Assembly: GCF_027352905.1 (NCBI RefSeq)
Contig: NZ_DAIEIF010000029.1
Span: 1-64,000 of the forward strand
Source of the DNA: Acidocella sp.
Lineage (GTDB): Bacteria > Pseudomonadota > Alphaproteobacteria > Acetobacterales > Acetobacteraceae
Reading direction: 5' to 3'
Length of the DNA stretch: 64,000 bases
Shown: one piece after another, positions 10,310-25,322 of the stretch
Layout: the number at the start of each line of letters is the position of its first letter
Position numbering within the stretch: position 1 is the first letter of the stretch
Position numbers and translations under genes: made by a program
The notes under the pieces: generated by a model
What the model was told of the DNA's origin: nothing
The model's input: the letters and a program-made list of their open reading frames with translations, nothing else
The model's database searches: none

Positions 10310-10360
10310 GGCGGGCCGGTTCCGCCATCCCTCCGGTGCGGTGGATTGGGCAGACGAGCA

Positions 10361-11146
10361 ATGGCAAAAAAACTGGTTTGGGGCCGGGCCTGGCATGGCC
10401 GTTCCTATGATCTCGGGCGCATGTCCCTCGCCGAGCTATGGGGGGCCTATCTCACCAACCCCGCCATCAATCTCTACGCCGCGCTGGCCTTGCTCTCCGG
10501 GGCCTATGCGCTGCTCACCGTCCGGCATTGGCCGCAGCTGGCCTGGCCCGCCCTCGCGGTCTTCATCGTCTATCCGCTGGTCTGGTACGGGCTGCACCGC
10601 TATGTCCTGCATGGCCGCTGGCTCTACCGCATGCGCTGGAGCGCGGGGTTGTGGAAGCGCATCCATTTCGACCATCATCAGGACCCGCACCGGCTGGAGG
10701 TGCTGTTCGGCTCGCCGCTCAACACCATCCCCACCATGGCGGTCATCACCGGTCCCATCGGCTATGCTCTGGCGGGCTGGACCGGGGCCGCCGCCGGCTT
10801 CGCCACGGCGCTATTCATAACCTGCGTTTATGAATTCTTCCATTGCATCCAGCACCTCAACTACAAGCCGCGCAACCGCTTCATCCAAAAGCTCAAGCGC
10901 GACCATTTGCTCCATCATTTTCAGAGCGAGCAGGTGAATTACGGCATCGTCAGCTTTCTGCCAGACATGCTGTTCCATACCTATGCCAGCCAGGCCAAGG
11001 ATTGCCCGAAAAGCCCAACGGTTTTCAATCTAGGTTACGATCTTGAGGAAGCGCGGCGATATCCCTGGGTGATGCGGAAAACCGGCGCGCCGCCCCTGGA
11101 TAAACCCCCGCCCGCCATGGAGGAAACCGCCAGGCGCGGTTGCTGA
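10361..11146 (+). CDS. Fatty acid hydroxylase / sterol desaturase superfamily membrane protein
   Basis: A 261-residue di-iron membrane hydroxylase. Four hydrophobic stretches surround the histidine boxes HRYVLH, HFDHHQDPH, HCIQH and HLLHH that bind the two irons. ATG 10361 (MAKKLVWGRAWH) is preferred to an upstream TTG. It overlaps the next gene, a GNAT-fold acyltransferase of ceramide-synthase type, by one base (TGATG), which ties it to lipid synthesis. Family members hydroxylate fatty acids or long-chain bases of sphingolipids, and hydroxylated ceramides are known in acetic acid bacteria, so ceramide or acyl-chain hydroxylation is the likely role. The exact carbon is unknown. Confidence 0.82.
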   Translation: MAKKLVWGRAWHGRSYDLGRMSLAELWGAYLTNPAINLYAALALLSGAYALLTVRHWPQLAWPALAVFIVYPLVWYGLHRYVLHGRWLYRMRWSAGLWKRIHFDHHQDPHRLEVLFGSPLNTIPTMAVITGPIGYALAGWTGAAAGFATALFITCVYEFFHCIQHLNYKPRNRFIQKLKRDHLLHHFQSEQVNYGIVSFLPDMLFHTYASQAKDCPKSPTVFNLGYDLEEARRYPWVMRKTGAPPLDKPPPAMEETARRGC

Positions 11147-12279
11147 TGCCGGGGGTCGAGATTGTCCCCGTCACGGATAAGCGCCTGCTCTCCCGTTTCA
11201 TCCGCCTGCCAGAGCGGCTGCACGCCACGGACCCCGCCTATATCGCGCCGCTGCACATGGAGCGCGCGGAGGCATTGAACCCCGGAAAAAACCCGCTTTT
11301 CGGCCATGCCGAGGCGCAATACTGGCTGGCCGTGCGGGAGGGGCGGGATGTCGGGCGCATCAGCGCCCAGATCGACCGGCTCGCCCTCAAGCTGCGCCCG
11401 GACGAGCCCGGCCTGTTCGGCCTGCTGGCGGCGGAGGACGACGCGGAGGTTTTCACCGCTCTGCTAGACACCGCGGCGGACTGGCTGCGCGTGAGGGGCA
11501 TGAAGGCGATGCGCGGGCCATTCAGCCTCAACATCAACGAGGAGACCGGCCTGCTGGTGGACGGGTTTTCCGCCCCGCCCATGCTGATGATGCCGCATGA
11601 CCTGCCTTATGTGGCGGGGCAGGTGGAAAAACGGGGGCTGGTCAAGGTCAAGGATGTCCTCGCCTATCTCTACGATATCCGGGTGGAGCTGCCGGATGCC
11701 GTCCGCCGCCTGCTCGCGCGGGAATTGCCGCCGGGGCTGAAGGTGCGCCGGCTCGATCTCAAGCGGATCAAGGAGGAGATTCGCAATGTCACCGCTATTT
11801 TCAATGATGCCTGGTCGCAAAACTGGGGCTTCGTGCCGCTGACCGAGGCGGAGACCGATTACCTTGCCAAGGCTCTGAAGCCGCTGCTTCATCCCCGCCT
11901 CACTAGCCTGGTGGAGCGGGATGGCGAGCCGGTGGCCTTCATGATCGCCCTGCCGAATCTGAACGAGGCGATCAAGGGCCTCAAGGGCCGCTTGCTGCCT
12001 TTCGGCTGGGTCCGGCTGTTATGGCGGTTGAAGGTGGCGGGGGTGAAAACCGCGCGGGTGCCATTGATGGGCGTGCGCCGCGCCGCCGCCCGGGACATGA
12101 TCGGCGGGCTGCTGCCCTATTTGATGATAGACCAGGTGCGCCGGGAGGGTCTCGCCATGGGCTATACCCATATCGAACTCTCCTGGATTCTCGAGGATAA
12201 CCTGCCGATGCGCCGGATGATCGAGGGGCTGCGCGCCGCGCCCTACAAGACCTACCGGGTCTACGAAAAGCCGATTTAG
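11146..12279 (+). CDS. GNAT-fold acyltransferase, likely bacterial ceramide synthase
   Basis: A 377-residue soluble protein of the GNAT-like family that includes the Caulobacter bacterial ceramide synthase (bCerS), which N-acylates the long-chain base. Features seen are a first half with KAMRGPFSLNINEETGLLVDGF and a second half with NDAWSQNWGFVPLTEAE, then the acceptor-side block YTHIELSWILEDNLPMRRMIE typical of this group. The start ATG 11146 overlaps the hydroxylase stop. Its stop (TAG) overlaps the convergent reductase gene by four bases. The assignment rests on family resemblance plus the neighbouring serine palmitoyltransferase, reductase, ACP and ligase. Confidence 0.75.
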   Translation: MPGVEIVPVTDKRLLSRFIRLPERLHATDPAYIAPLHMERAEALNPGKNPLFGHAEAQYWLAVREGRDVGRISAQIDRLALKLRPDEPGLFGLLAAEDDAEVFTALLDTAADWLRVRGMKAMRGPFSLNINEETGLLVDGFSAPPMLMMPHDLPYVAGQVEKRGLVKVKDVLAYLYDIRVELPDAVRRLLARELPPGLKVRRLDLKRIKEEIRNVTAIFNDAWSQNWGFVPLTEAETDYLAKALKPLLHPRLTSLVERDGEPVAFMIALPNLNEAIKGLKGRLLPFGWVRLLWRLKVAGVKTARVPLMGVRRAAARDMIGGLLPYLMIDQVRREGLAMGYTHIELSWILEDNLPMRRMIEGLRAAPYKTYRVYEKPI

Positions 12280-13223
12280 AGCCAGCCGCTCGCGCGATAC
12301 CAGGCGGCGGTCTCGGCGAACCCCGCCGCCAGGCCGTAGCGGGGCGAATAAACCGCGGCGGGCAACAATTCCGCCAGGGGCACGGACCAATCCGGATGCA
12401 GGAGTTCCCGCGCCTTGCCGAGGGTGAGGATCGGCGGCTCCGCGCGCAGCCGCCCAGCCAGCCCGCAGGCGAGGCCCGCAGCCAGCACCGCTTGGCCCGG
12501 CATGGGAAGCAGCAAGGGCCGTCCGCCCGTGGCCCGCGCCGCTTCCTCGAGCAGGGCGCGCGGGCTGTAGCCCTCCGGGCGGGAATCGGCGAGGGCGAAG
12601 CGGCCGGGACGGAAAGCCTCCCCCGCCAGGGCGGCGATGGCCGCCGCCGCGTCCGCGGCATGGATCACCGCCACCCGCCCGGCGCCGAACACCGGCGCCA
12701 CCCGCCACAGGCTGGCGCGGAAGAGCGCCAGGGTTTCCCGGTCCCATGGCCCGTAAATCGCGGGCGGGCGGAGAATGGCGAGCTGTTCCGCCGCCCCGGC
12801 ATACGCCTCCCGCGCTGCCTCCTCGCCGGCGCGCTTGCTGGCGGCATAGGCGGAGAGCCCGGCCTCCCGCGCGGCGAGGGAGGAAACCAGCAGGAAGCGC
12901 GCCCCCGGCGCGAGGCGCCGCACCGTGCCAGCCAGCAGGGCGGTGCCGTCCCGGTTGACACGGAAGAATTCGGCCCGGCTGCGCGCCTTGATGAGACCCG
13001 CCGCGTGGATCACCACATCCGCGCCGCGCACCAGCGCCTCCACCGCTCCAGCATCGGCCAAATCGCCGCGCAGCGTCTCGAAGGCGAGGCCGGCGAAGGC
13101 GGGATGCGCGGGGTCGCGCCGCGCCAGCAGGCGCAAGCGGAAGCCGGCGCGCGCCAGAGCGGGGATGAGATGCAGGCCGAGAAAGCCAGTGCCGCCGGTG
13201 ACGGCGGCGAGGCGCGGGGTCAC
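12276..13223 (-). CDS. NAD(P)-dependent SDR epimerase-type reductase, CerR-like
   Basis: A 315-residue extended short-chain dehydrogenase. The Rossmann motif GGTGFLG is at residues 10-16, SSLAA is the strand before the active site, and YAASK is the catalytic Tyr-x3-Lys. In Caulobacter a protein of this type (CerR) reduces the keto group of the ceramide intermediate. The start is GTG 13223, which overlaps the acyl-AMP ligase stop by the four bases GTGA, so the two are coupled. The longer upstream frame is only an extension inside the ligase gene. Confidence 0.78.
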   Translation of the reverse strand: MTPRLAAVTGGTGFLGLHLIPALARAGFRLRLLARRDPAHPAFAGLAFETLRGDLADAGAVEALVRGADVVIHAAGLIKARSRAEFFRVNRDGTALLAGTVRRLAPGARFLLVSSLAAREAGLSAYAASKRAGEEAAREAYAGAAEQLAILRPPAIYGPWDRETLALFRASLWRVAPVFGAGRVAVIHAADAAAAIAALAGEAFRPGRFALADSRPEGYSPRALLEEAARATGGRPLLLPMPGQAVLAAGLACGLAGRLRAEPPILTLGKARELLHPDWSVPLAELLPAAVYSPRYGLAAGFAETAAWYRASGWL

Positions 13224-14959
13224 TCCGCCGCGGTGGCGGCGGGGCGCGGCTCGAAGGCGCCCTCCAGATACATGGCGCGGGCGCGCGAGCGGCTGAGCTT
13301 GCCGGAGGAGGTCAAGGGCAGGCTGTGCGGCGGCACCGGCACCACCCGCGTCTCCAGCCCGTGCCGCCCGCGGAAAAACCGGGCGAGGTCGAGGGCCAGG
13401 GTCTCGCGCGCGGCGGGGTCGACCAGCCGGCATTGAACGAGGACCACGACCTCCTCCTCCTCCCCGTCATCAACCGAGAACACCGCGACATCACCGCTGC
13501 GCAGCGAGGCGAATTCCGCCTCCGCCGCCCATTCGAGGTCTTGAGGCCAGACATTGCGGCCATTGGCGATGATGAGATCCTTCGCCCGACCGGTGATCAC
13601 CAGCTGGCCATTGGCGAGATAGCCGAGATCGCCGGTATCGAGCCAGCCATCCGGGGAGAGGACGCGCGCGGTTTCCTCCGGTGCGCCGTGATAGCCCAGC
13701 ATCAGGCTGGGGCCGCGCACGAAAATGCGCCCCACCTGCCGCTCGGGCAGTAAGTTTCCCGCCTCGCCGCGCACCTGCGCCTCGTGCCTGGGCAGCATCT
13801 GGCCGCAAATCACGAAGCGGCGGGTGCGCTCACTGCGGCCATTGGCGGGCACGGCGCGGTGCTCGCGTTCCAGGATCATGCCATCCACCGCGTCCTCGCG
13901 AGCGCCATGGCCATCCGGGCTGAAGCTGAGCGCCAGCGTCGCCTCCGCCATGCCGTAGCAGGGAATGAAGGCGTTGGGAGAGAAGCCGCTGGCGGCGAAG
14001 CGTTCCGCGAAGCGGGTGAGCACGGCGGGGCGGATCATGTCGCCGCCGATCCCCGCCCGCCGCCAGGAGGAAAGATCGAGCTCCTCGGTGGAGACCGTCT
14101 GCGCCCGGCGCGTGCAAAGCTCATAGCCGAAGGAAGGGCTGAAGGAGATGCTGCCCCGGTTGCGGGTGATGAGTTGCAGCCAGAGCAGGGGGCGGCGGGC
14201 GAATTCCCGCGTCGGCAGAATATCGACCGAGAGCTGGCAGGCCATCGGCATCAGCAGGAAGCCGACCAGGCCCATATCGTGATAATAGGGCAGCCAGGTG
14301 GTGCAGCGGTCGCCATCGCCCACCTGCAATCCATATTTCGCCATGTAATGGGCGTTGGCCATGAAGGCGCGCTGGGTGACGGCGATGCCGAGGGGAAAGC
14401 GGGTGCTGCCGGAGGAGAATTGCAGATAGGCGAGGGAGTCCGGCGCGGCCGGCGGCGTGGCCTTCGCCAAGGGGGCCTCGGCCAGGGCGGAGATGACCCC
14501 CGAGCATTTCAGGCCGAGCCCGGCGACGGCCTGGGCCAGCCAGTCCGCGAGAATGGCGGGGCCAAACACGGCATGCGCGTCCGCGCCCTGGATCATCCGG
14601 CGCAGGAAGGCGATATAACCATCCTTGCCGCCGAAGGCGGTGGGAAGAGGCAGCGGCGCGGGAACCAGCCCGGCATATTGGCAGGCGAAGAAGGCGCGGG
14701 CGAAATCGCCATCGCTCTCCGCGAGCAGGCCGACGCGCTCGCCGGGTTTGAGCCCCAGGCCGAGCAGCCTCCGGGCGAGCAGCATCGCCTCGGCCCGCAG
14801 TCTCGCATAGGGTAATATCTCGGTGAGAACGCCTTTGCCTGAATAGAAGTTGAGGCCGGTCTGGCCTTGGGCGGCGTAATCGAGAGCCTCGGCAATGGTT
14901 CCGAAATCGGCGAAGCGCTTGGCCAGACCTGGGTGGCGAGTCGGGGTCGGCTCAGTCAT
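13220..14959 (-). CDS. Fatty acyl-AMP ligase / acyl-ACP synthetase
   Basis: A 579-residue AMP-forming ligase of the FAAL type. The P-loop-like FSSGSTRFPLGI is at 181-192, LPYYHDMGLVG at about 226, and the adenylate motif YGMAEATLAL at about 333. The C-terminal part has GWLDTGDLGYL and ITGRAKDLIIANGRNVWPQDLE. FAALs load fatty acids onto carrier proteins. With a stand-alone ACP and serine palmitoyltransferase 6 kb away, it probably charges that ACP, as the ACP synthetase of the Caulobacter sphingolipid operon does. It is divergent from ino1. Confidence 0.85.
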   Translation of the reverse strand: MTEPTPTRHPGLAKRFADFGTIAEALDYAAQGQTGLNFYSGKGVLTEILPYARLRAEAMLLARRLLGLGLKPGERVGLLAESDGDFARAFFACQYAGLVPAPLPLPTAFGGKDGYIAFLRRMIQGADAHAVFGPAILADWLAQAVAGLGLKCSGVISALAEAPLAKATPPAAPDSLAYLQFSSGSTRFPLGIAVTQRAFMANAHYMAKYGLQVGDGDRCTTWLPYYHDMGLVGFLLMPMACQLSVDILPTREFARRPLLWLQLITRNRGSISFSPSFGYELCTRRAQTVSTEELDLSSWRRAGIGGDMIRPAVLTRFAERFAASGFSPNAFIPCYGMAEATLALSFSPDGHGAREDAVDGMILEREHRAVPANGRSERTRRFVICGQMLPRHEAQVRGEAGNLLPERQVGRIFVRGPSLMLGYHGAPEETARVLSPDGWLDTGDLGYLANGQLVITGRAKDLIIANGRNVWPQDLEWAAEAEFASLRSGDVAVFSVDDGEEEEVVVLVQCRLVDPAARETLALDLARFFRGRHGLETRVVPVPPHSLPLTSSGKLSRSRARAMYLEGAFEPRPAATAAE

Positions 14960-15623
14960 TTTGCCTGGAATCTACCTTTGCCATGATCCATGGGCGCTAA
15001 CAGAGTCAAAAGAGAATGGCAATGGCTTTGCCGTAAAGGCGCAGGCACTCCTTGCCAAATCGTGCTGAACCGGCTTGGCCTTCCTTCCGCCGGCTTTCCG
15101 AGCCCGTAATCTCCCGGCGCATGGGAGCCGAGTCCCGCACCGCGCATTGGGCTGGACCTTTCCAGCTCCGTCATCCGTCCCGGCGAGATCATGGGAGGCG
15201 AGGCCGGAGCGCCACGATTCGCGCTTTGCCGCGCATGGCTGCCATACCGGGAACCCGCCAAAACCCGCCATTGACGCGGGCGCGCCGCCCGCCCAGCGCT
15301 TCCCCCGCCCTGATCCGCCGGTTGCTCCCGATCTTATCGCCTATTCCCTGTCATGCTTGCGACACATAATGGAAAGAGCTAGGAAACTGACTCACCACGC
15401 AGAGTTCGGGCTCGCCCAGATTCTTCCGCGTTAGAGCCTTGAAGCTTCTGGCGCTGTCCCGCGGGGTGCGGCTGCAGGAGGCTTGAGAGCGGTTGATGGA
15501 TGAGGGTGAGGTTCCGGTCGGAGGGGCAAAGGCGGGGTTCCGCTCTTTCGCTGGTGGTGCAATCCGGCCGGATGGAAAAGCGTTCCGCTCTTCCGGCGGC
15601 CTTAGCGACAAACGAGGTTGATG
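14960..15623. other. Long divergent intergenic region between the ligase and ino1
   Basis: About 660 bases with no convincing gene; short open frames on both strands lack a ribosome-binding site or family features. It must hold the promoters for the leftward ligase-reductase pair and the rightward inositol genes. A weak promoter-like pair TTGCGA-17-TAGGAA lies near 15358-15386. The stretch 15440-15560 has a different, purine-rich texture and could be a dispersed intergenic element. Confidence 0.4.
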
Positions 15624-16757
15624 ATGGCGAAAAACGGCATCCGCATCGCGATTGCTGGCGTCGGCAATTGCGCGAGTTCCCTGATCCAGGGGTTGTATTA
15701 TTATACGCCGGAGCGTTGCGCCACCGATGTTGTCGGCCTCATGCACACCGAGATCGGCGGGTACCGGCCCTGCGATATCAGCGTCGTCGCCGCCTTCGAC
15801 GTGGATGCCCGCAAAGTCGGCCAGGATGTGAGCCGCGCCATCTTCGCCAAGCCCAACTGCACCAAGGTATTCCAGGCGGATATTCCGGAGATGGGGGTGG
15901 TGGTGCGGATGGGCCAGGTGCTGGACGGCATCTCTCCCCATATGGCGGATTACGATGACAACCGCACCTTCGTGCGCGCCGGGGCGGCTGAATTGAGCAA
16001 GGCGGAGATCGTCGCCAGCCTCAAGGAGAGCCGGGCCGACATCCTGCTGAATTATATGCCGGTAGGCTCGGAGCGGGCGGCCCGGTTCTATGCCGAATGC
16101 GCGCTGGAGGCGGGCTGCGGTTTCATCAACAACATGCCGGTCTTCATCGCCAGTGACCCGGCCTTCGCCGCGCGGTTCACCGCCGCCGGGCTGCCGATCA
16201 TCGGCGACGACATCAAATCCCAGCTCGGCGCCACCATCACCCACCGGGTGCTGACGGATCTGTTCGCCAAGCGGGGGGTGAAGCTGCTGCGCACCTACCA
16301 GCTCAATACCGGCGGCAATACCGATTTCCTCAACATGAAGAATCAGGAGCGGCTGGCCTCCAAGAAAACCTCCAAGACCGAGGCTGTGCAAGCCGTGGCC
16401 AAGAGCCGGATGGAGAACGAGAACATCCATATCGGCCCCTCGGATTACGTGCCCTGGCAGAACGACAACAAGATCTGCTTCATCCGCATGGAGGGGCTGC
16501 TTTTCGGCGATGTGCCGATGGACCTCGAACTGCGTCTCTCCGTGCAGGACAGCCCCAACTCCGCCGGCGTGGTCATCGACATGATCCGCTGCTGCAAGCT
16601 GGCGCTGGAGAATGGCATTGGCGGGGTGCTCGCCGGCCCCAGCGCCTATTTCTGCAAGCACCCGCCGGCGCAATACACCGATGACGTGGCCTATGAGATG
16701 ACGGAGGAATTCATCCGCTCTTGCCGGCCGGCCTTGGCGGCCACCGCCGCCGAATGA
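15624..16757 (+). CDS. ino1: Inositol-3-phosphate synthase family protein
   Basis: A 377-residue NAD-dependent enzyme of the bacterial/actinobacterial Ino1 type that converts glucose-6-phosphate to inositol phosphate. The Rossmann motif [10 protein letters not shown] is at 11-20. Further family blocks are [38 protein letters not shown] and [16 protein letters not shown]. The start is taken at ATG 15624, six bases after GAGG; ATG 15621 is an alternative. It overlaps the next gene by ATGA. Together with the nucleotidyltransferase and CDP-alcohol transferase it forms a three-gene head-group operon inside the ceramide locus. Confidence 0.93.
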
Positions 16758-17470
16758 AATGCCTCATCGCCGCGGCGGGCCAGGGCACGCGCCTGCGCGA
16801 GAAGGGAGAGCTGAAACCGCTCATCCCCATTCGCGGCGTGCCGCTGATCGAGCGGGTGATCATGAACGCCCATGCCGCCGGGGTGGAGGAGTTTCTCGTC
16901 GTCACCGGCTACCGGGCGGAGGAGTTGCAGGCGCGGCTCGGCGAATTCTCGCGCCGCACCGGCATCCACGTCACCCGCATCCATAACCGCGCCTGGACAC
17001 GGGCGAATGGCGTTTCGGTGCTGACGGCCAGGCAATATCTGGACGAGCCGTTTCTGCTGACCATGTGCGACCATCTGGTCGATCCCGAGATCCTGCGCCG
17101 CATGATCGAGGCCCGGCAGGAGGCGGACACCGTGATGCTCGGCGTCGATTTCAATATCGACAACCCGTTGAACGACCCGGATGATGTGACCCGCGTGAAA
17201 AGCGAGGGCGCGCGGCTCCTGCATATCGGCAAGGTGATCCGCGACTTCAACGGTTTCGATACCGGCGTTTTCCGCTGCACCCCCGTCATGTTCGCGGCGC
17301 TGGAGGAATCCCAGGCGCGCGGGGATGACAGTATTTCCGGCGCCATGAACGTGCTGGCCGAATGGGGCAAGGCGCGGGTCTTTGATATCGGCGACCGGCT
17401 CTGGGTCGATGTGGACGACCCGGTCGCCTTCGGCAAGGCCGAGGCGCTTCTCGATTCCAAGCGGCTCTGA
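16754..17470 (+). CDS. Nucleotidyltransferase, probable CTP:inositol-1-phosphate cytidylyltransferase
   Basis: A 238-residue MobA/GlmU-type nucleotidyltransferase. The N-terminal loop [20 protein letters not shown] (6-25) binds the nucleotide, [11 protein letters not shown] (101-111) supplies a metal-binding Asp, and LWVDVDDP near 216-223 a second. It resembles the cytidylyltransferase half of IMPCT/DIPPS enzymes that make CDP-inositol. Its ATGA overlap with ino1, and the CDP-alcohol phosphatidyltransferase 13 bases downstream, support inositol phosphate as substrate. Sugar-phosphate specificity cannot be excluded. Confidence 0.8.
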
Positions 17471-17483
17471 AGGGGCGGTGAGA

Positions 17484-18362
17484 ATGAGCGATGCCGCTCT
17501 GGGCGGGGCTGAGCCGGTTCGCCGGACGGAGGAGATCGAGGATCCCTCCAATCTGTACTTCATCCACCCGCTCTCGGCCCGGCTCGTGCCGCTCTGCGCC
17601 CGGCTGGGCGTCAAGCCCAACGCCGTATCGCTCGCCGGCATGGCCTGCGGGCTGCTGGCCGGCCTCTCCTATTATTTTTACCAGAATACCGGCTGCGCCA
17701 TTCTCGGCTTCGCGCTGATGCTGGCCTGGCATGTGCTGGATGGGGCGGATGGCCAGCTCGCCCGGCTGACCAAGAGCTATTCCGAGCTGGGCAAGGTGCT
17801 GGACGGCATTTGCGATTACGTCACCTTCACCGCCGTTTATGCCGGGCTGGCGCTGGCTCTCAGCCATCAGCTCGGCCCCTGGGTCTGGGCGCTGGCGGCG
17901 CTCTCCGGCCTGGCGCATGCTGTGCAATCAGCGGCTTACGAGATGCAGCGCCAGGAATATAATTTCTGGGGCTGGGGGCGGAACTCGGCCGCTCTGCCAG
18001 AGCTGAGGGCGCGGCCGCGCGGTCTCGCGGGCTGGCTGCATCATCTCTATGCGCGGGTGCAGGTCTGGGCCTCCGGCGGGGCGGCGGAGTTCCACACGCG
18101 CTTCGCCAGGATTTTTGCCGCTCGTCCGGCCCAGCAGAAGGCGCTGCGCGCCGCCTACCGCGCGGCCTTCGCGCCGCTGGTCCGGCGCTGGGGGGTGCTC
18201 AGCGCCAATTACCGCACGCTGGCCATTTTCATCGCCGCGCTGCTCAAACTGCCGGTGCTCTATTTCGTTTTCGAAATTCTCGGGCTGGGCGCGGCGATGC
18301 TGGTGCTGCTGGAGGCCCAGAGGCAACAATACAAGGCGTTTCTGGCGGGACTCACCCGCTGA
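17484..18362 (+). CDS. CDP-alcohol phosphatidyltransferase
   Basis: A 292-residue membrane enzyme with the complete family signature D89-G-x2-A-R...G103...D107...D111 (DGADGQLARLTKSY and GKVLDGICD). Hydrophobic segments lie at about 48-67, 72-88, 112-150 and 255-280. Such enzymes transfer a phospho-alcohol from a CDP donor to a hydroxyl acceptor. With ino1 and the nucleotidyltransferase just upstream, the likely donor is CDP-inositol and the acceptor a ceramide, giving inositol-phosphoceramide. Phosphatidylinositol-phosphate synthesis is the alternative. Its 3' end overlaps the convergent lptG by 11 bases. Confidence 0.85.
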   Translation: MSDAALGGAEPVRRTEEIEDPSNLYFIHPLSARLVPLCARLGVKPNAVSLAGMACGLLAGLSYYFYQNTGCAILGFALMLAWHVLDGADGQLARLTKSYSELGKVLDGICDYVTFTAVYAGLALALSHQLGPWVWALAALSGLAHAVQSAAYEMQRQEYNFWGWGRNSAALPELRARPRGLAGWLHHLYARVQVWASGGAAEFHTRFARIFAARPAQQKALRAAYRAAFAPLVRRWGVLSANYRTLAIFIAALLKLPVLYFVFEILGLGAAMLVLLEAQRQQYKAFLAGLTR

Positions 18363-19449
18363 ACAGGGTTTGCAGGCGGTTATGGCCGCGCGCCAGCAAC
18401 CAGGCGCCCAGCGAGACGAGCAAAAGCGGGGGGGTGAGAGCGGAGATGGCGGGGTTGACCGCCATCAACAGCCCGGCATAGCCGGTGATCTCCTGGATCA
18501 GCAGAAACCCTATGCCGATGACCGCGCCGGTCACGGTCTGCCAGCCCGCATGGCCGGAGCGTTGCGTGCCGCCAAAGACGAAGGGCGCGGCGATGAGAAC
18601 CATGCCGATCAGCGAGACCGGGACCGCCACCATATTCCAGAAGCTTTGCTCGTAAATCAAAGCCTCTTGATGCTGGCGCTTGAGTTCATGGACATAGGCG
18701 AACAAAGCCAGAGGCGGCATGGTTTCCGGCGGGATGGCGAGAAGCTGCAATTGCTTGTCGGAGAGAAAAGGCCGCCAGGCGAGCGAGGCGGGATGGTCGG
18801 TCTCGATCTGGCCGTTAGAGACGGCGTCCCGCTCGACCCCGGTGAGTTGCCATTCTCCATCCGGCAGGGGGCGGGCGGTTTCCGCCCGGATATGGCTTTG
18901 CAACGTGCCATCCGGATTGAACGCGAAGATCTCCACCCCCCGCAGCGTGTGCCGCCCGGTGTAATTCTGCACGTTGAGGAAGACGCCGTTTTTCTGGGCC
19001 CAGAAGCCGCCATTCGAAAGCCCGGGCAGGGCATCGCCCAGCGCGGCGGCCTGCTCGCGCTGGGCTTTTTGCTGGGCTGGGGGGACGACGAATTGCGCGA
19101 TGAGAAACAGGCCGAGGATGACCGGCAGGCAAAGCTTGACCACCGCGCCCATCATCCGCGCCTCGGAGACGCCGAAGCTGCGCCAGGCGGTGAGTTCCGA
19201 ATACCGGGCGAGGCCGCCCAGGCCGATGAGGCTGCCCAGCAGCATGGCGATGGGAGCGATTTGTAAAAGCCGGTCGGGCGCGGTGAGGAGGGCGCTGCTC
19301 AGCGCATCGCGCAGCTGGTAGCGCCCGTAGCCGATCAGGCTCAGCTGCTCGATGAAGTCGAGCAGGCTGAACAGCGCGGTCAGGCCAATGGCGACGAGCA
19401 GGAAGGCACGAAACACCGCCCAGCCGAGATAGCGGTCGAGCAGGGTCAT
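18352..19449 (-). CDS. lptG: LptG-family lipid export permease
   Basis: A 365-residue YjgP/YjgQ permease. It has N-terminal membrane helices (RYLGWAVFRAFLLVAIGLTALFSLLDF and two more), a periplasmic beta-jellyroll (about 130-265) and three C-terminal helices. LptF/LptG form the membrane part of the ABC machine that pulls lipopolysaccharide toward the outer membrane. It starts one base after the lptF stop. The canonical alphaproteobacterial neighbours lptD, surA and pdxA are absent; the neighbours are ceramide and inositol-lipid genes, so this may be a paralogue for sphingolipid transport. Whether another lptFG pair exists cannot be seen here. Confidence 0.88.
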   Translation of the reverse strand: MTLLDRYLGWAVFRAFLLVAIGLTALFSLLDFIEQLSLIGYGRYQLRDALSSALLTAPDRLLQIAPIAMLLGSLIGLGGLARYSELTAWRSFGVSEARMMGAVVKLCLPVILGLFLIAQFVVPPAQQKAQREQAAALGDALPGLSNGGFWAQKNGVFLNVQNYTGRHTLRGVEIFAFNPDGTLQSHIRAETARPLPDGEWQLTGVERDAVSNGQIETDHPASLAWRPFLSDKQLQLLAIPPETMPPLALFAYVHELKRQHQEALIYEQSFWNMVAVPVSLIGMVLIAAPFVFGGTQRSGHAGWQTVTGAVIGIGFLLIQEITGYAGLLMAVNPAISALTPPLLLVSLGAWLLARGHNRLQTLFSG

Positions 19450-19450
19450 G

Positions 19451-20608
19451 CTAACCCGCTAAGGAGCGCAAGGCAGCGGGGTGCAGGCGCCGGGCCGAAG
19501 CCGCGCCGGGCGGCGGCCGCCGCGCTTGCCGCCGCCAGACCGGCACGTACCAGATGATGGCGATGGCCAGGGCGAGCATGGCGGGCGCCCACCATAAGCC
19601 GGGGAAACCGCCGATCAAGCCGTGCTGCACCCAGCTTCGCGCCGTGCTGCACGCGAAAAAATAGGCGGAATAGGCGAGGATCGCCGGACCGAATCTGGTG
19701 TAGCGGCCCTGGCGCGGCTGCCCCCGGCTGAGCAGCGCGCCCAACAGCGCCAGCAGCATGGTGGAGACGCCGGTGGACAGGCGCCATTGCCGCTCGGCCA
19801 CATCGGGAGGGCTGGAGGAGGAGAGCAGATGCTCCATGCCCGCCGCCACCGAGCTATATTTGTAATTCGTCGTAATCTCGCTATCGGGGCTGACATTGAT
19901 CTGAGCCGCGTCGAGAACCTGGTCTTTGGCCGGGGCGTCCGGGTAAAACTGATAGACATGGGCGCCGAAGAGATGGACGACGCGGCGTCCATCCGTCCCG
20001 GTGGCGGCGGGTGTCGCGTTATCGGCGTAGATCACCTCGATATGATCACGCTCGCGCTGCGCCACGAAAACCCGCAGGGCCGGGGCGTGCGGCCCGGCGC
20101 GGCTGCCGAGGAAAATGACACGGTCGCCATCGGAGCTGGCGTAGAACGTTCCCGCCTCCATGGCGTTTACATTCATCATCGCCGCGGCGCGGTGGGAGAT
20201 GTCATGCGTGGCCAGATAGGCTTTGGGCCGGGCGAAGACCGAGAGGCCGACGACGAGCAGGGCGAGCGCCAGCGCCACCCCCATGACGGGGGCCAGGAAT
20301 TCGCGCGGCCCCATGCCGAGCGCCTGCATGGCGGTCACCTCGTCATCCATTTGCAACCGGCCGAATCCCGTCACCACGGCCATGAACAGCGAGACCGGGA
20401 GGATGACATCCATGGAGATCAGCAGCTTGAGAAAGGTGAGGGCGAAGATGGAGCCGACCGGCAGCAGGCCGCTCACCGCGTCCGAGAGAATCTGGGCCAG
20501 GCTGTAGCCAGAGAACAGCAAGGCGAGAATGCCGAGGATCACCGCGAAGGGCCGTAGAATCTCCCGGATGATATATGCCGTGACGATCAATTTCCTGGAC
20601 CCATCCAT
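19451..20608 (-). CDS. lptF: LptF-family lipid export permease
   Basis: A 385-residue partner of LptG with the same plan. Helices are at about 12-35 and 50-80, QALGMGPREFLAPVMG precedes the third helix, a periplasmic domain spans about 120-265, and three C-terminal helices end in a basic tail. ATG 20608 (MDGSRKLIVTAYIIREILRP) is preferred to an upstream TTG 20656. It is divergent from the ACP-serine palmitoyltransferase operon, with a short AT-richer promoter region around 20670-20700. It pairs with lptG at one-base spacing. Confidence 0.88.
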   Translation of the reverse strand: MDGSRKLIVTAYIIREILRPFAVILGILALLFSGYSLAQILSDAVSGLLPVGSIFALTFLKLLISMDVILPVSLFMAVVTGFGRLQMDDEVTAMQALGMGPREFLAPVMGVALALALLVVGLSVFARPKAYLATHDISHRAAAMMNVNAMEAGTFYASSDGDRVIFLGSRAGPHAPALRVFVAQRERDHIEVIYADNATPAATGTDGRRVVHLFGAHVYQFYPDAPAKDQVLDAAQINVSPDSEITTNYKYSSVAAGMEHLLSSSSPPDVAERQWRLSTGVSTMLLALLGALLSRGQPRQGRYTRFGPAILAYSAYFFACSTARSWVQHGLIGGFPGLWWAPAMLALAIAIIWYVPVWRRQARRPPPGAASARRLHPAALRSLAG

Positions 20609-20778
20609 CTTCGCCCGCCCGCGGGTGCCGCGGTTTTGCCCGGCCCCCCGTGACAATGCGATGCCGACTCTTTAATAAGGAGGCTTAGGACTTGTATAGG
20701 TTTAAATTTCCGCCCGCCATGGGCCGCCCATGCGGGGCTGGCTTGCGGCGGCGGGACAGAGGAGCGGCGGTCCGCCAG

Positions 20779-21030
20779 ATGCCCGAAGACAATGAGGATA
20801 TCCGTGAGGTGATTTTCGGCGCGCTGCGCGCGGCCCTGCCGCAGGCGCGCCCGCTCTCGGACGAAACGCATATCATTGAGGATCTCGGGCTGGATTCCGT
20901 GGCGGTGATGGATTTTGTCATGGAGATCGAGGACAGGCTCGATATTTCCGTGCCGCTCGACCAGATCGCCGAGGTCGAGACGCTGGGGGATCTCGTCGCG
21001 ACAGTGCAACGGCTGAAGGCCGCGCGGTGA
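20779..21030 (+). CDS. Acyl carrier protein of the sphingolipid pathway
   Basis: An 83-residue acyl carrier protein. The phosphopantetheine attachment serine is Ser40 in EDLGLDSVAVMDFVMEIED. It ends three bases before the serine palmitoyltransferase start, so the two are co-translated. In Caulobacter a dedicated ACP next to spt supplies the acyl donor. Here the FAAL-type ligase in the same locus is the probable loading enzyme. The upstream in-frame extension to 20692 is not ACP-like and is rejected. Confidence 0.9.
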   Translation: MPEDNEDIREVIFGALRAALPQARPLSDETHIIEDLGLDSVAVMDFVMEIEDRLDISVPLDQIAEVETLGDLVATVQRLKAAR

Positions 21031-21033
21031 GCG

Positions 21034-22251
21034 ATGGCCCTGTTCGATAAATACGCGGCCCTGGCTGAACAGTATCGCCGGCTGGAGGAGGCGGGAGCCA
21101 ACCCCTTCAATGTTCCGTTCGACGAGGTGCTCTCCCCCACCGAGGCGGTGATCGCCGGGCGGCGGACGCTGTTGCTTGGCACCAATAATTATCTCGGACT
21201 CACCTACGACCCCGCCGTGATCGAGGCGGCCCGCCAGGCGACGCGGGCGCTGGGCACCGGCACCACCGGCTCGCGCATCGCCAATGGCAGCTATGGCGGC
21301 CATGCGCGGCTGGAGCGCGCCCTGGCGGCGTTTTATGACCGCGCCCATGGCATGGTGTTCTCCACCGGTTACCAAGCCAATCTCGGCATCATCTCCGCCC
21401 TGGCGGGCAAGAACGATCATCTGCTGCTCGACGCCGATTCCCACGCCAGCATCTATGACGGCGCCCGGCTCGGCCATGCCCAGGTCATCCGCTTCCGCCA
21501 TAACAGCCCGGAGGATCTCGCCAGCCGGCTGCGCCGCCTGCGGCACGAGCCGGGGGACAAGATCATCGTCGTCGAGGGCATTTACTCGATGCTGGGCGAT
21601 ACCGCGCCGCTCAGGGAATTCGCGGCGGTCAAGCGGGAATATGGGGCCTATCTGGTGGTGGATGAGGCTCATTCCCTGGGCGTGCTGGGGGAGACGGGAC
21701 GCGGGCTGGCGGAACAGGCGGGGGTGGAGCCGGATGTCGATTTCATCGTTGGCACCTTCTCCAAGAGCCTCGCCGGGGTGGGCGGGTTCTGTGTCACCGA
21801 TATCGCCGGGGCGGAGATTTTACGGGTCGTCAGCCGGCCCTATATGTTCACCGCCTCGCTGCCGCCGGGGGTCATCGCCGCCGCCGAGGCCGCCTTGCAC
21901 GAGCTGCGCATGCGCCCCGCCTTGCGCCAGCGGCTGAACGAGAACGCGGTGCGGCTTTATCGGGGGCTGGAGCGGCTCGGCTTCGAGCTGGGGCCAGAGC
22001 CGAGCCCGGTGGTTTCCGCGATCATGCCTTCGCCGGATGCCGCCTTCGGCTTCTGGGCGGCCTTGCTCAAGGCCGGGCTCTACACCAATGTCAGCCTGCC
22101 TCCGGCCACGCCCGGGGGGCTGGCCTTGCTGCGTTCCAGCGTCAGCGCCGCGCATAGCCCGGCGCAGATCGATCATGCCATCGGCCTGTTCGCCGAGCTG
22201 GGCCGCGCGCAGGGGCTGCTGCCGAGCCGGGCCGCCCTGGCGGTGAAATAA
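21034..22251 (+). CDS. spt: Serine palmitoyltransferase (alpha-oxoamine synthase family)
   Basis: A 405-residue PLP enzyme that condenses serine with an acyl thioester to 3-keto-sphinganine, the committed step of sphingolipid synthesis. Active-site residues of the family are present: His137 in DADSHASI, Asp210 and His213 in VVDEAHSLG, and the PLP lysine Lys244 in GTFSKSLAGVGG. TGYQANLGII and the GTGTTGSRIANGSYGGH loop are typical of bacterial SPT rather than of KBL or BioF. Partnership with a dedicated ACP, CerR-like reductase and bCerS-like protein supports SPT over 8-amino-7-oxononanoate synthase. Confidence 0.9.
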   Translation: MALFDKYAALAEQYRRLEEAGANPFNVPFDEVLSPTEAVIAGRRTLLLGTNNYLGLTYDPAVIEAARQATRALGTGTTGSRIANGSYGGHARLERALAAFYDRAHGMVFSTGYQANLGIISALAGKNDHLLLDADSHASIYDGARLGHAQVIRFRHNSPEDLASRLRRLRHEPGDKIIVVEGIYSMLGDTAPLREFAAVKREYGAYLVVDEAHSLGVLGETGRGLAEQAGVEPDVDFIVGTFSKSLAGVGGFCVTDIAGAEILRVVSRPYMFTASLPPGVIAAAEAALHELRMRPALRQRLNENAVRLYRGLERLGFELGPEPSPVVSAIMPSPDAAFGFWAALLKAGLYTNVSLPPATPGGLALLRSSVSAAHSPAQIDHAIGLFAELGRAQGLLPSRAALAVK

Positions 22252-22271: not shown

Positions 22272-23411
22272 ATGCGTGAGGTCGCGATCTACCGGCACAA
22301 CCTGTTCAGGGTGTCGGAACCGTTCATCACCCAGCAGGCGCAGGGCCTGCAACGCTACCGGCCGGTTTATCTAGGGCGGCTGCGCATGGGTCCGGCGCCG
22401 CCAGGCGCGGAGTTCCTGGCGCTGGAGGATCTCGCGCCGCCGCGGCTGAAGCTGCTGCCCGCCGGCTGGCACCTGCTTTCCGCCAGCCCGCATCCCTATC
22501 TCTATATGCTGGAAGGGCGGCGGCCCGCCCTCATCCATGCCCATTTCGGCGTGGACGGTCTGCACGCCCTGCCGCTGGCGGCGCGGCTCGGCGTGCCGCT
22601 GGTCACCACCTTTCATGGGTTCGACGCCACGCTCGGCACGCCCGGCCTGCTCGCCAACCCGGCCTGGGCGCGCTATGCGCTGCGGCGCGGGCGGCTGGCG
22701 GCGCAAGGCGGGCTTTTTCTCGCCGCCTCGGCCTTTCTGCGCCGCAAATTGCTGGATCTCGATTTCCCGCCGGAGCGGGTGCGCGTGCATTATATCGGGG
22801 TGGATACCCGCGCGATCATGCCCCGCGCCCCGGCGGAGGAAGAGGAGGTGATCCTCCACGTGGCGCGGCTGGAGCCGGTGAAGGGAACGGAAATTCTGAT
22901 CCGCGCCTTCGCCCAATTGGCGCCCCGCTATGCCCAGGCCCGGCTCGTTATCATCGGCGAGGGCGGGCTGCGCAAATCCTTGCAGCGCCTGGCGCGGGAA
23001 AGCGGCGCGGGTGAGCGGATCGTCTTTCTCGGGGCGCGCCCTCATCCGGAGGTTCTCGCCTGGATGCGCCGGGCCGCCATGCTCGTTCTGCCCAGCGTGC
23101 GCACCTCATCGGGCCGGGAGGAGGGGCTCGGCATGGTGCTGCTGGAAGCCGCCGCCACTGGCGTGCCGGGCATCGGCTCGCGCGTCGGCGGCATCGCCGA
23201 GGGCATCGCCGAGGGCAAAAGCGGCTTCGTGGTGCCCGAGCGCGATCCCGACTCGCTGGCCCACGCCATCGCCACCCTGCTTGCCAACCCTGGCTTGCGC
23301 CAGCGCATGGGGGCGGCGGCGCGCCAGCAGGTGGAGCGGTATTTCGACCTCAGCCGCCAGACCGCCGCGCTTGAGGATCTTTACGACGCCATGCTGGACG
23401 GGCGCGGATGA
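22272..23411 (+). CDS. Glycosyltransferase, GT4 family
   Basis: A 379-residue cytoplasmic GT-B enzyme. The N-terminal domain includes ALIHAHFGVDGLHAL and TTFHGFDATL. The C-terminal domain starts near ILHVARLEPVKGTEIL and holds the E-x7-E nucleotide-sugar motif in EEGLGMVLLEAAATG. It lies 20 bases after spt and overlaps the PIG-L deacetylase by ATGA. The pair GT4 plus de-N-acetylase parallels MshA-MshB of mycothiol synthesis and PIG-A/PIG-L of GPI synthesis, so transfer of N-acetylhexosamine to the inositol-lipid is a reasonable hypothesis. Confidence 0.88.
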   Translation: MREVAIYRHNLFRVSEPFITQQAQGLQRYRPVYLGRLRMGPAPPGAEFLALEDLAPPRLKLLPAGWHLLSASPHPYLYMLEGRRPALIHAHFGVDGLHALPLAARLGVPLVTTFHGFDATLGTPGLLANPAWARYALRRGRLAAQGGLFLAASAFLRRKLLDLDFPPERVRVHYIGVDTRAIMPRAPAEEEEVILHVARLEPVKGTEILIRAFAQLAPRYAQARLVIIGEGGLRKSLQRLARESGAGERIVFLGARPHPEVLAWMRRAAMLVLPSVRTSSGREEGLGMVLLEAAATGVPGIGSRVGGIAEGIAEGKSGFVVPERDPDSLAHAIATLLANPGLRQRMGAAARQQVERYFDLSRQTAALEDLYDAMLDGRG

Positions 23412-24154
23412 CCCGCGCCGCGCTGGTGGCCGCCCATCCCGATGATGAGATCCTTTGGCTCAGCCCGGCGGTGGCGGCGGCTGACCCGCTGGTGCTCTGC
23501 TTCGGCGCGCCATTTGCCAACCCGGCCAGGGCGGCCAGCCGCGCCCGCGCCGTGGCCGCTTTGGGCCTGCCGCGACTCGTCAACCTGAACCTGCCGGAAA
23601 GCGGGGCGCGGCCCCATGTGGATTGGACCCCGCCCCATCTCACACCCTTCGGGATCGGGATCACCGACCTCGCCGCGCGGGCGCGCTATGAGGCGAATTT
23701 CCATAGCCTCGTGGAGCGGCTGCGGCTGGTGCTGCAAGGGGTGGAGGCGGTCTATACCCATAATCCCTGGGGAGAATATGGCCACCCGGAGCATATCCAG
23801 GTGCATCGCGCCGTGGGCACCCTGCAAGCGGAGCTGGGCTTTACGCTATGGTTTTCCGGCTATGTCGCGCCGCTGAGCCTGGGGCTGGCGCGCCAGCTGG
23901 GGGCGGAGCCGCTCTGGCGGGAGAAGCGGGTGGCCGCGCCGGATGTGCGCCTCGCGCGGCGTTTGCGCGGCGTGTATCTGCGCTACCGGGCCTGGACGTG
24001 GTCGCCTTTTCATGTCTGGCCCGCCTGGGAGACGCTCTATGCCCAGCCGCCCGGCCCGCGCGCGGGCTGGCGGGGCCTGCGTGGCGAAACCTTGCTGGAT
24101 GCGACGCGGCTGCGCTGGTGGGTGGCGCCGGCGAAGGCGAAATGCTTAATCTAG
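23408..24154 (+). CDS. PIG-L family de-N-acetylase
   Basis: A 248-residue zinc-dependent deacetylase. The metal and catalytic motif AHPDDE is at residues 9-14, and the second zinc site HPEH is at 126-129. Homologues remove acetyl from GlcNAc-inositol compounds (MshB, PIG-L) or from lipid intermediates. It is translationally coupled to the GT4 gene. In this locus the likely substrate is a GlcNAc-inositol-phosphoceramide, giving a free amine on the head group. It terminates at TAG, 19 bases before the serine hydrolase gene. Confidence 0.88.
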   Translation: MTRAALVAAHPDDEILWLSPAVAAADPLVLCFGAPFANPARAASRARAVAALGLPRLVNLNLPESGARPHVDWTPPHLTPFGIGITDLAARARYEANFHSLVERLRLVLQGVEAVYTHNPWGEYGHPEHIQVHRAVGTLQAELGFTLWFSGYVAPLSLGLARQLGAEPLWREKRVAAPDVRLARRLRGVYLRYRAWTWSPFHVWPAWETLYAQPPGPRAGWRGLRGETLLDATRLRWWVAPAKAKCLI

Positions 24155-24173: not shown

Positions 24174-25322
24174 ATGAATAAAACCGGGCTGGATCATCTG
24201 CTGCGCGAGGCCGCCGCCAAGGGACGCGTGGCGGGGGTGGTGGCACTGGCCGCCGACCGCAACGGCCCGATTTACGAGGCGGCCTTTGGCGAGCGCGTGC
24301 GCGGCGGCGGCGTGGCCATGACGCTGGATACGGTGTTTCACATCGCCTCGATGACCAAGGCCATCACCGCCGCCGCCGCGATGCAGCTGGTGGAGCAGGG
24401 AAAAATCTCCCTGGATGAGCCGCTGGGCCGGCTGCTGCCCTATCTGGATCAGCCGCCCGTGCTGGAAGGGTTCGAGGCCGCAGGCCAGCCCCGCCTGCGT
24501 CCGGCTCGCGCGCCGGTCACGCTGCGCCAGCTTCTCACCCATACGGCCGGCTTCGCCTATGATATCTGGAACGCCGATCTCAACCGCTATCTCAAAGCTT
24601 CGGGACTTCCCGGCGCGCGGTCGGGACGGCTCAAGGGGCTGGAGCAACCGCTCGCCTTCGAACCGGGAACGCGCTGGGAATACGGCATCGGCATAGACTG
24701 GGCCGGGCGGGTGGTCGAGGCGGTGAGCGGCCAGGATCTCAATTCCTATGTCCTGGATCATATCCTCCGCCCCCTGGGCATGAAGGATGCGAGCTACGTT
24801 CCGGACGACGCGCAGGCCGGGCGCGGGGCCGGGCTGCATGTCCGCCATCCGGATGGCACGCTCTCCGGCCAGGATTTCCGCAAGCCGAGCTTTCCTGAAT
24901 TTTTTCCGGGTGGCGCTGGCCTCGTTTCCACCGGGCCTGATTATCTGCGTTTCCTCCAGGCTTTATTGGCGGGCGGCGGCGGGGTTCTGCGCCCGGAGAC
25001 GGTGGCGATGATGCTGCAAAACCAGATGGGCGCGCTCGACGTGCTGCCGCTGCGCACCGCCGAGCCTGGATTGTCTCATGATTTCGAGTTTTTTCCTGGC
25101 CAGCCGAAGAAATGGGGGCTGAGCTTTCTCATCAATACCAAGGCGGTGCCCGGCCGCCGGGGGGCGGGCAGCGCGGGCTGGGCCGGGCTGTTCAACTGCT
25201 ATTACTGGCTCGACCCCGGCGCGGGTGTGGCGGGGGTGATGCTGACCCAGAGCCTGCCCTTCGCCGATCCCGTTCTGCTCGACCTGTTCGGTCGATTCGA
25301 AGCCGGGGTTTACGCGGCCTAA
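24174..25322 (+). CDS. Serine beta-lactamase-fold hydrolase/esterase
   Basis: A 382-residue protein of the class C beta-lactamase/family VIII esterase group. The nucleophile motif S59-M-T-K62 is in FHIASMTKAI, the tyrosine motif is in RWEYGIGIDW, and LLTHTAGF is the conserved loop. There is no signal peptide, so it is probably cytoplasmic and an esterase rather than a secreted lactamase. A strong ribosome-binding site (AAGGAGG) precedes ATG 24174. It follows the PIG-L gene by 19 bases and may share its transcript, but a link to lipid synthesis is unproven. Confidence 0.85.
   Translation: MNKTGLDHLLREAAAKGRVAGVVALAADRNGPIYEAAFGERVRGGGVAMTLDTVFHIASMTKAITAAAAMQLVEQGKISLDEPLGRLLPYLDQPPVLEGFEAAGQPRLRPARAPVTLRQLLTHTAGFAYDIWNADLNRYLKASGLPGARSGRLKGLEQPLAFEPGTRWEYGIGIDWAGRVVEAVSGQDLNSYVLDHILRPLGMKDASYVPDDAQAGRGAGLHVRHPDGTLSGQDFRKPSFPEFFPGGAGLVSTGPDYLRFLQALLAGGGGVLRPETVAMMLQNQMGALDVLPLRTAEPGLSHDFEFFPGQPKKWGLSFLINTKAVPGRRGAGSAGWAGLFNCYYWLDPGAGVAGVMLTQSLPFADPVLLDLFGRFEAGVYAA

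Follow-up and report, generated by a model that had tools for sequence, protein, structure and literature searches.

A GT4 glycosyltransferase/PIG-L deacetylase gene pair in an Acidocella sphingolipid cluster, proposed to complete a glycosyl-inositol-phosphoceramide head group

Results

The 64,000-nucleotide stretch of Acidocella sp. DNA analyzed here (contig NZ_DAIEIF010000029.1, positions 1 to 64,000; hereafter the window) carries a sphingolipid gene cluster at ~10.3 to 24.2 kb, the last two genes of which encode a GT4-family glycosyltransferase and a PIG-L-type de-N-acetylase. The cluster runs in the order fatty acid hydroxylase, ceramide-synthase-like protein, reductase, fatty acyl-AMP ligase, ino1, nucleotidyltransferase, CDP-alcohol phosphotransferase (CDP, cytidine diphosphate), LptG, LptF, acyl carrier protein (ACP), serine palmitoyltransferase (SPT), GT4, PIG-L. 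We conclude that the GT4/PIG-L pair probably performs the last head-group steps in the synthesis of a bacterial glycosyl-inositol-phosphoceramide (GIPC), made via CDP-inositol, with glucosamine (GlcN)-inositol-phosphoceramide as the product.

The GT4 and PIG-L proteins

22272..23411, + strand: GT4 glycosyltransferase (379 aa), proposed uridine diphosphate (UDP)-N-acetylglucosamine (GlcNAc):inositol-phosphoceramide (IPC) GlcNAc transferase, from Pfam, fold and profile matches
23408..24154, + strand: PIG-L-type de-N-acetylase (248 aa), proposed GlcNAc-IPC deacetylase, from PF02585, motifs and fold

The two genes share the bases ATGA at 23408-23411, which hold the stop codon of GT4 (TGA) and the start codon of PIG-L (ATG), and SPT ends at 22251, 20 bases 5' of GT4. 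These open reading frame coordinates confirm an earlier note on this DNA, which had placed the overlapping pair directly after spt.

The first protein belongs to GT4 by its match to Glycos_transf_1 (E 5e-41), its fold and its E-x7-E motif, which takes the form EGLG[ML]xxLE in 24 of 25 aligned rows; the remaining row (G005) ends at a contig end. Its predicted structure (mean predicted local distance difference test score, pLDDT, 94.1) was closest in Foldseek to MshA (E 1.5e-24), followed by BshA, and a profile search of the PDB returned the same two with BshA first. It scored 113.6 bits against the BshA model TIGR03999, for which the equivalog cut-off is 273.7, and none of the six Pfam families that it matched at E up to 0.001 is named PIGA, a domain for which we take Pfam to have a model.

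The second protein belongs to the PIG-L superfamily, matching PF02585 at E 1.4e-8 (35.7 bits against a curated cut-off of 28.2), as do all 19 aligned proteins from the genus at E up to 0.001; it is the one PF02585 match at that threshold in its own genome. HPDDE and GEYGHxEH are kept in all 24 aligned rows (x is P or A in 22 and T in two); we take HPDDE and HxEH to be the zinc-binding and catalytic motifs of PIG-L. The three MshB chains were the only sequences found by PDB profile search, and MshB was also the top Foldseek match (E 1.2e-6) of the predicted structure (pLDDT 88.3). Because the family match and the motifs are kept across these rows, the pairing of GT4 with PIG-L is more than chance.

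An inositol module and a transporter pair in the same cluster

15618..16757, + strand: ino1, myo-inositol-1-phosphate synthase (PF01658 E 2.7e-36; TIGR03450 443.8 bits, below the equivalog cut-off of 638)
16751..17470, + strand: CTP (cytidine triphosphate):inositol-1-phosphate cytidylyltransferase-like protein (PDB profile matches 2xme, 4mnd, 4jd0)
17472..18362, + strand: CDP-alcohol phosphotransferase, proposed CDP-inositol:ceramide inositolphosphotransferase (PF01066, motif, PDB profile matches)
18352..19449, - strand: LptG-like permease (PF03739)
19451..20656, - strand: LptF-like permease (PF03739)

The Pfam match bears out the presence of ino1 in the locus, as had been noted before. By profile search, the nearest solved relatives of the adjoining nucleotidyltransferase are three CTP:inositol-1-phosphate enzymes (2xme, E 6.8e-23; 4mnd, 3.5e-22; 4jd0, 5.2e-20, a match shared by CpgD, which has another substrate; next match, 1.3e-9). 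The motif DxxDGxxAR(x8)GxxxDxxxD of the phosphotransferase is kept in 22 of 23 rows, the other (G026) ending at a contig end, and its best PDB profile match is AF2299 (E 2.1e-7). Together, the cytidylyltransferase-like protein and the phosphotransferase could make IPC. No ceramide kinase was recognized among the Pfam and NCBIfam matches of the cluster genes, which is expected if CDP-inositol reacts directly with ceramide.

We refer to ino1, the two genes for CDP-inositol synthesis and inositol transfer, LptF/LptG and the GT4/PIG-L pair as the cassette. LptF is 45-65% identical to the window copy in 24 carrier stretches, compared to 21-30% in nine cassette-free SPT regions; for LptG the figures are 43-72% (22 stretches) and 24-28% (10 regions). 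Judged by identity, exporter and head group look as though they go together. A protein distantly related to the cytidylyltransferase (27-33% identity) is present in four cassette-free SPT regions (L211, L212, L231, L246), perhaps one of the phosphoglycerate type reported in Caulobacter.

In the pathway that we propose, Ino1 would make inositol-1-phosphate, the cytidylyltransferase would convert it to CDP-inositol, and the phosphotransferase would move phosphoinositol to ceramide, yielding IPC with no ceramide kinase step. The GT4 enzyme would then place alpha-linked GlcNAc from UDP-GlcNAc onto the inositol of IPC at the cytoplasmic face, PIG-L would remove the acetyl group, and LptF/LptG would help carry GlcN-IPC toward the outer membrane. 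The PIG-L partner and the likeness to MshA and BshA point to GlcNAc as the donor sugar, and co-occurrence points to IPC as the acceptor. The product of Ino1 is 1L-inositol-1-phosphate, that is, the D-3 phosphate. Since a CDP-inositol route keeps the phosphate position set by Ino1, the lipid phosphate may sit at D-3 of inositol, as opposed to D-1 in eukaryotic inositol lipids. The head group would be zwitterionic because it has one phosphodiester and one amine: GlcN would neutralize the charge of IPC without reversing it, and the positively charged head group suggested in the earlier note is not supported. A role of LptF/LptG in export is suggested by analogy with the cluster described in Caulobacter (PMC11324152).

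Distribution of the pair in the genus

Among 38 genomes of the genus, an SPT orthologue and ino1 occurred in the same 22 (the ino1 of G001 being a fragment, E 3.2e-9), and a GT4 orthologue of at least 60% identity in 20. The PIG-L search covered 37 genomes and found the gene in 18, plus G061. In the three SPT-positive genomes without PIG-L (G005, G018, G025), the contig ends inside GT4 or SPT. Neither a GT4 orthologue nor PIG-L was found in any of the 16 SPT-negative genomes, several of which are incomplete.

No genome of the genus reached the cut-off for the MshC ligase, compared to one of 14 control genomes; weaker matches to the MshC model in 36 of the 38 were taken as cysteinyl-tRNA synthetase. 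A mycothiol pathway is rejected on this count, and a mycothiol-type thiol is correspondingly disfavored.

Distribution outside the genus

The class sample comprised 385 genomes, the present one included, 49 of which have SPT. The phosphotransferase at E<1e-90 and PIG-L at E<1e-100 each occurred in three genomes, as did ino1 of at least 80% identity (three of 33 ino1 carriers), and these were always the same three: G000, G283 and G392 (Fisher p 5.4e-5 among the 49 SPT genomes, uncorrected for common descent). At E up to 1e-10, 14 genomes had a phosphotransferase match.

SPT regions were read in 38 of the other 46 SPT genomes, some of them short (G064, 3.0 kb; G239, 8.6 kb; G267, 9.7 kb). With the PIG-L profile, none of these cassette-free regions was matched at E up to 1e-4; with GT4, one was, weakly (G063). 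Weak nucleotidyltransferase matches were present in four cassette-free SPT genomes (G351, G267, G095, G312), and weak phosphotransferase profile matches (E 1e-11 to 5e-6) at twelve cassette-free loci in ten genomes (two each in G223 and G074). In G242, PIG-L is weakly matched (E 1.9e-31, 29% identity) on a stretch of contig that has no other gene of the cluster; the SPT of this genome lies on a different contig, and the phosphotransferase gave nothing at E up to 1e-10.

A scan of contigs from other genomes with PIG-L returned at least 27 loci. In four of them (L095-L098) SPT adjoins the pair, and one of the four, L098, is apparently the genus genome G020. Nitrospirillum amazonense (L096) and an Elstera metagenome-assembled genome (MAG; L097) carry the nucleotidyltransferase, phosphotransferase, LptG, LptF, ACP, SPT, GT4 and PIG-L, in an order similar to that of the window. 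Each contig begins within the cytidylyltransferase or just ahead of it; of ino1, the former shows a 26-residue piece at its far end and the latter shows nothing. Neither SPT nor the phosphotransferase was matched at E up to 1e-4 in the stretches of the other 23 loci listed (L099-L121, 26-38% identity to PIG-L); five (L101, L102, L114, L116, L118) have weak GT4 matches and two (L114, L119) weak nucleotidyltransferase matches. A PIG-L search of the families of G392 (one of 39 genomes) and G283 (one of five) found no further carriers; the phosphotransferase was not searched there. A plasmid search with PIG-L returned three PIG-L proteins, each of at most 41% identity.

A DUF2141 gene (PF09912) adjoins the pair, between SPT or LptF and GT4, in the non-genus carriers L095-L097, L127 and L128. 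It also lies beside the pair in G028 of the genus (L087), with weaker copies (31-39% identity) in seven cassette-free SPT regions; no such gene was matched at E up to 1e-4 in the window or in the other genus loci searched.

A cassette on another ceramide core

In one class genome, G283, core and cassette have different affinities. Its SPT and acyl ligase group with those of the cassette-free G351 and G267 in careful trees (support 100/99 for each), its ceramide-synthase-like protein groups with that of G351 (99, quick tree), its reductase is nearest that of G351 and its hydroxylase that of the cassette-free G308; the SPT is 71% identical to those of G351/G267 and 59% to that of the window. The ligase contig also bears the phosphotransferase, LptG, LptF, GT4 and PIG-L, and the SPT contig bears the nucleotidyltransferase (68% identity) and ino1 (82% identity). 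Quick trees of GT4, PIG-L and the phosphotransferase place G283 with the other non-genus carriers. Thus, the inositol genes, the transporter pair and GT4-PIG-L co-occur here with a different ceramide core.

A broader proposal, which we hold at a shade under even confidence, is that these genes form a mobile head-group-plus-transporter cassette in some Alphaproteobacteria, swappable between ceramide cores, which makes GlcN-IPC. This lipid would then be the bacterial equivalent of the GIPC core of fungi, with its phosphate possibly at D-3 of inositol.

The ceramide core and the end of the cluster

10346..11146, + strand: fatty acid hydroxylase-like protein of the ceramide core (PF04116; recurs in SPT regions)
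11140..12279, + strand: ceramide-synthase-like acyltransferase (GNAT-like is our label; recurs in SPT regions)
12276..13355, - strand: short-chain dehydrogenase/reductase (SDR)- or epimerase-type reductase, ceramide-reductase-like, start uncertain (PF01370; adjoins SPT or ligase in many SPT regions)
13220..14959, - strand: fatty acyl-AMP ligase of the ceramide core (NF006624, 839.4 bits against a cut-off of 600)
20692..21030, + strand: ACP of the sphingolipid cluster (PF00550)
21034..22251, + strand: SPT (spt; NF047599, 658 bits, above the equivalog cut-off of 500)

The ceramide-synthase-like protein matched no Pfam family at E up to 0.001, and the ceramide-reductase role is one that we assume by analogy with Caulobacter. 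The reductase and ligase frames (12276-14959) overlap, and their aligned parts do likewise in several relatives, by ~10 to 130 bases (L075 is an exception); this reflects either a later reductase start or a true gene overlap. Directly downstream of PIG-L lies a gene for a beta-lactamase-fold protein (24174-25322), for which the nearest model is the methyl acetate hydrolase AcmB (393.1 bits, cut-off 550). It had no match in 20 genus stretches, some of which end soon after PIG-L, so the conserved block appears to stop with PIG-L.

Discussion

Weighing the assignment

Several observations weigh against the assignment of the pair to GlcN-IPC synthesis by a fixed cassette. The donor and acceptor of the GT4 enzyme are not readable from its sequence, and its top NCBIfam scores are to EpsE (135 bits) and the XrtA-system transferase stp2 (126.9 bits), both far below cut-off. 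In a profile alignment its F92, G116 and Y135 stand opposite MshA Y110, T134 and R154, which we take, with the residue numbering assumed, to bind inositol phosphate; the residues differ. VIA-align placed a teicoplanin deacetylase first for PIG-L (Z 15.0, 3.3 A, 190 aligned), with MshB (Z 13.1, 3.2 A, 184 aligned) tied with diacetylchitobiose deacetylases. An isoelectric point (pI) above 9 in 24 of 25 GT4 rows and 15 of 24 PIG-L rows, compared to none of 80 rows of ino1, cytidylyltransferase, SPT and ligase, is suggestive of work at the membrane, and yet basicity is not special to the pair: in the window the pI is 11.2 for the reductase, 10.1 for LptF, 9.8 for the hydroxylase, 9.7 for the phosphotransferase and 9.5 for the GNAT-like protein. 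Three genomes have their ino1-nucleotidyltransferase-phosphotransferase block away from the SPT block, with the pair remaining at SPT: in G007 the inositol block is inverted, and in G020 and G028 it is on a separate contig. The strongest evidence against a fixed cassette comes from Rhodospirillales REEB358 (L095), in which ACP, SPT, GT4 and PIG-L lie together on a 17.6 kb stretch that contains no ino1, cytidylyltransferase, phosphotransferase, LptF or LptG. G283 is one event in a draft MAG of ~400 contigs, and there are few independent events overall. Lastly, the top structure hit reported for Caulobacter CpgD, a phosphoglycerate cytidylyltransferase, is also 4jd0, described as a CTP:inositol-1-phosphate cytidylyltransferase structure (PMC12275187). 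Likeness to 4jd0 is for that reason weak proof of an inositol substrate, and the adjoining ino1 is the better argument.

Some of these results fit a sugar placed on ceramide itself or on another part of a sphingolipid, so that the cluster would make IPC and a separate amino-glycosphingolipid. The pair directly follows SPT in the window and remains with it where the inositol block has moved and on the REEB358 stretch, and sphingomonads have amino-sugar glycosphingolipids. We consider this unlikely, if deserving of some weight, given the lack of any PIG-L match and the single weak GT4 match in the 38 cassette-free SPT regions read, and the occurrence of the pair together with the inositol genes on a different ceramide core in G283. 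A soluble inositol phosphate acceptor, with GlcN-inositol as a soluble metabolite or thiol precursor drawn from the same Ino1, would follow the order of MshA and MshB; MshA, BshA and MshB, which are near folds, all act on soluble acceptors, and ino1 is in the cluster. The MshC result, the restriction of close PIG-L to genomes with SPT in both the genus and the class sample, and the lack of conservation of the MshA residues taken to bind phosphate make this quite improbable.

We give equally little credence to the same acceptor receiving another N-acetylated hexosamine, such as N-acetylgalactosamine (GalNAc), or to PIG-L removing a non-acetyl acyl group. The unreadable donor and the VIA-align ranking of teicoplanin deacetylases above MshB leave room for it, but the nearest GT4 structures use UDP-GlcNAc, as is known for MshA and as the name of the BshA entry, GlcNAc-malate synthase, indicates. 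That the pair modifies lipopolysaccharide (LPS) and is a mere neighbor of the sphingolipid genes is very improbable. LptF/LptG homologues lie nearby, and both enzyme families serve many polysaccharide pathways; against this, the pair in the genus accompanies SPT and is missing from all 16 SPT-negative genomes, and in Caulobacter a second set of LptF/LptG copies has been reported within the phosphosphingolipid cluster (PMC11324152). The acceptor that we favor for the pair, IPC, is the ceramide-linked inositol suggested in the earlier note, a suggestion that gains partial support from the co-occurrence of pair and inositol module across families, in a cluster with a ceramide pathway.

Relation to known systems

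The predicted product falls in the same class, IPC plus glucosamine, as fungal GlcN-alpha-1,2-IPC, known from A. fumigatus GntA and the GIPC core of S. schenckii; GntA is described as a UDP-GlcNAc:IPC transferase and the fungal GlcN-IPC core as zwitterionic (PMC5954224). The differences are that the organism is a bacterium with its own enzymes, that the inositol would arrive by a CDP-inositol route, and that the linkage is set in fungi and not assigned here; no mannose extension genes were recognized in the window cluster, a further difference. The comparison to MshA-MshB-Ino1 of mycothiol, drawn in the earlier note, stands at the level of organization and fold: there too a GT4 enzyme and then a PIG-L-type deacetylase act beside Ino1, and the nearest folds by profile and Foldseek are MshA/BshA and MshB. 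It fails at the level of equivalogs, since all three proteins score below the NCBIfam cut-offs: GT4 as MshA (TIGR03449; 107.1 bits, cut-off 462.5), PIG-L as MshB (TIGR03445; 25.2, cut-off 224.35) and Ino1 (443.8, cut-off 638), and MshC is above cut-off in none of the 38 genomes. Synthesis of glycosylphosphatidylinositol (GPI) anchors starts with PIG-A and PIG-L, which add GlcNAc to an inositol lipid and then de-N-acetylate it. The parallel that had been drawn with this step holds for the proposed chemistry, in its order on an inositol lipid, and not for the GT4 protein, which has no PIGA match; ceramide would replace the glycerolipid.

Among bacterial systems, an alternative inositol-lipid cluster of Bacteroidetes (MIPS, nucleoside triphosphate (NTP) transferase, CDP-alcohol phosphotransferase, HAD) has been proposed, without confirmation, to make inositol dihydroceramide by a CDP-inositol route (PMC9246714). 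The window cluster, from another phylum, has no recognized HAD gene and has GT4, PIG-L and LptF/LptG in addition. The same source describes Novosphingobium acidiphilum, an alphaproteobacterium reported to lack both known clusters, as having an inositol-like sphingolipid (PMC9246714). In common with the window cluster, the Caulobacter phosphosphingolipid cluster joins a head-group module to a ceramide core, and it has a related cytidylyltransferase as well as second copies of LptF/LptG; its head group, as reported, is ceramide diphosphoglycerate, a phosphoglycerate type that involves CpgA-D and LptF2/G2 and starts with a ceramide kinase (PMC11324152, PMC12275187), whereas that of the window would be inositol and probably an amino sugar.

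Each enzyme family involved is already known, as is GlcN-IPC in fungi. Among the matches listed from titles and abstract openings in the open-licence literature, there was no report of bacterial GlcN-IPC or of a GT4-PIG-L pair in a sphingolipid cluster. GIPCs are described as major lipids of plants and fungi (PMC11907402). If our proposal is correct, Gram-negative bacteria make them too, using other enzymes, and the exporter can be swapped together with the head group as a single unit. Nitrospirillum amazonense is a named carrier in which the prediction could be followed: a 42 Da shift in the lipid of a PIG-L mutant, and loss of hexosamine in a GT4 mutant. Such a carrier would also let one ask what leads some bacteria to favor a zwitterionic surface sphingolipid over an anionic one.

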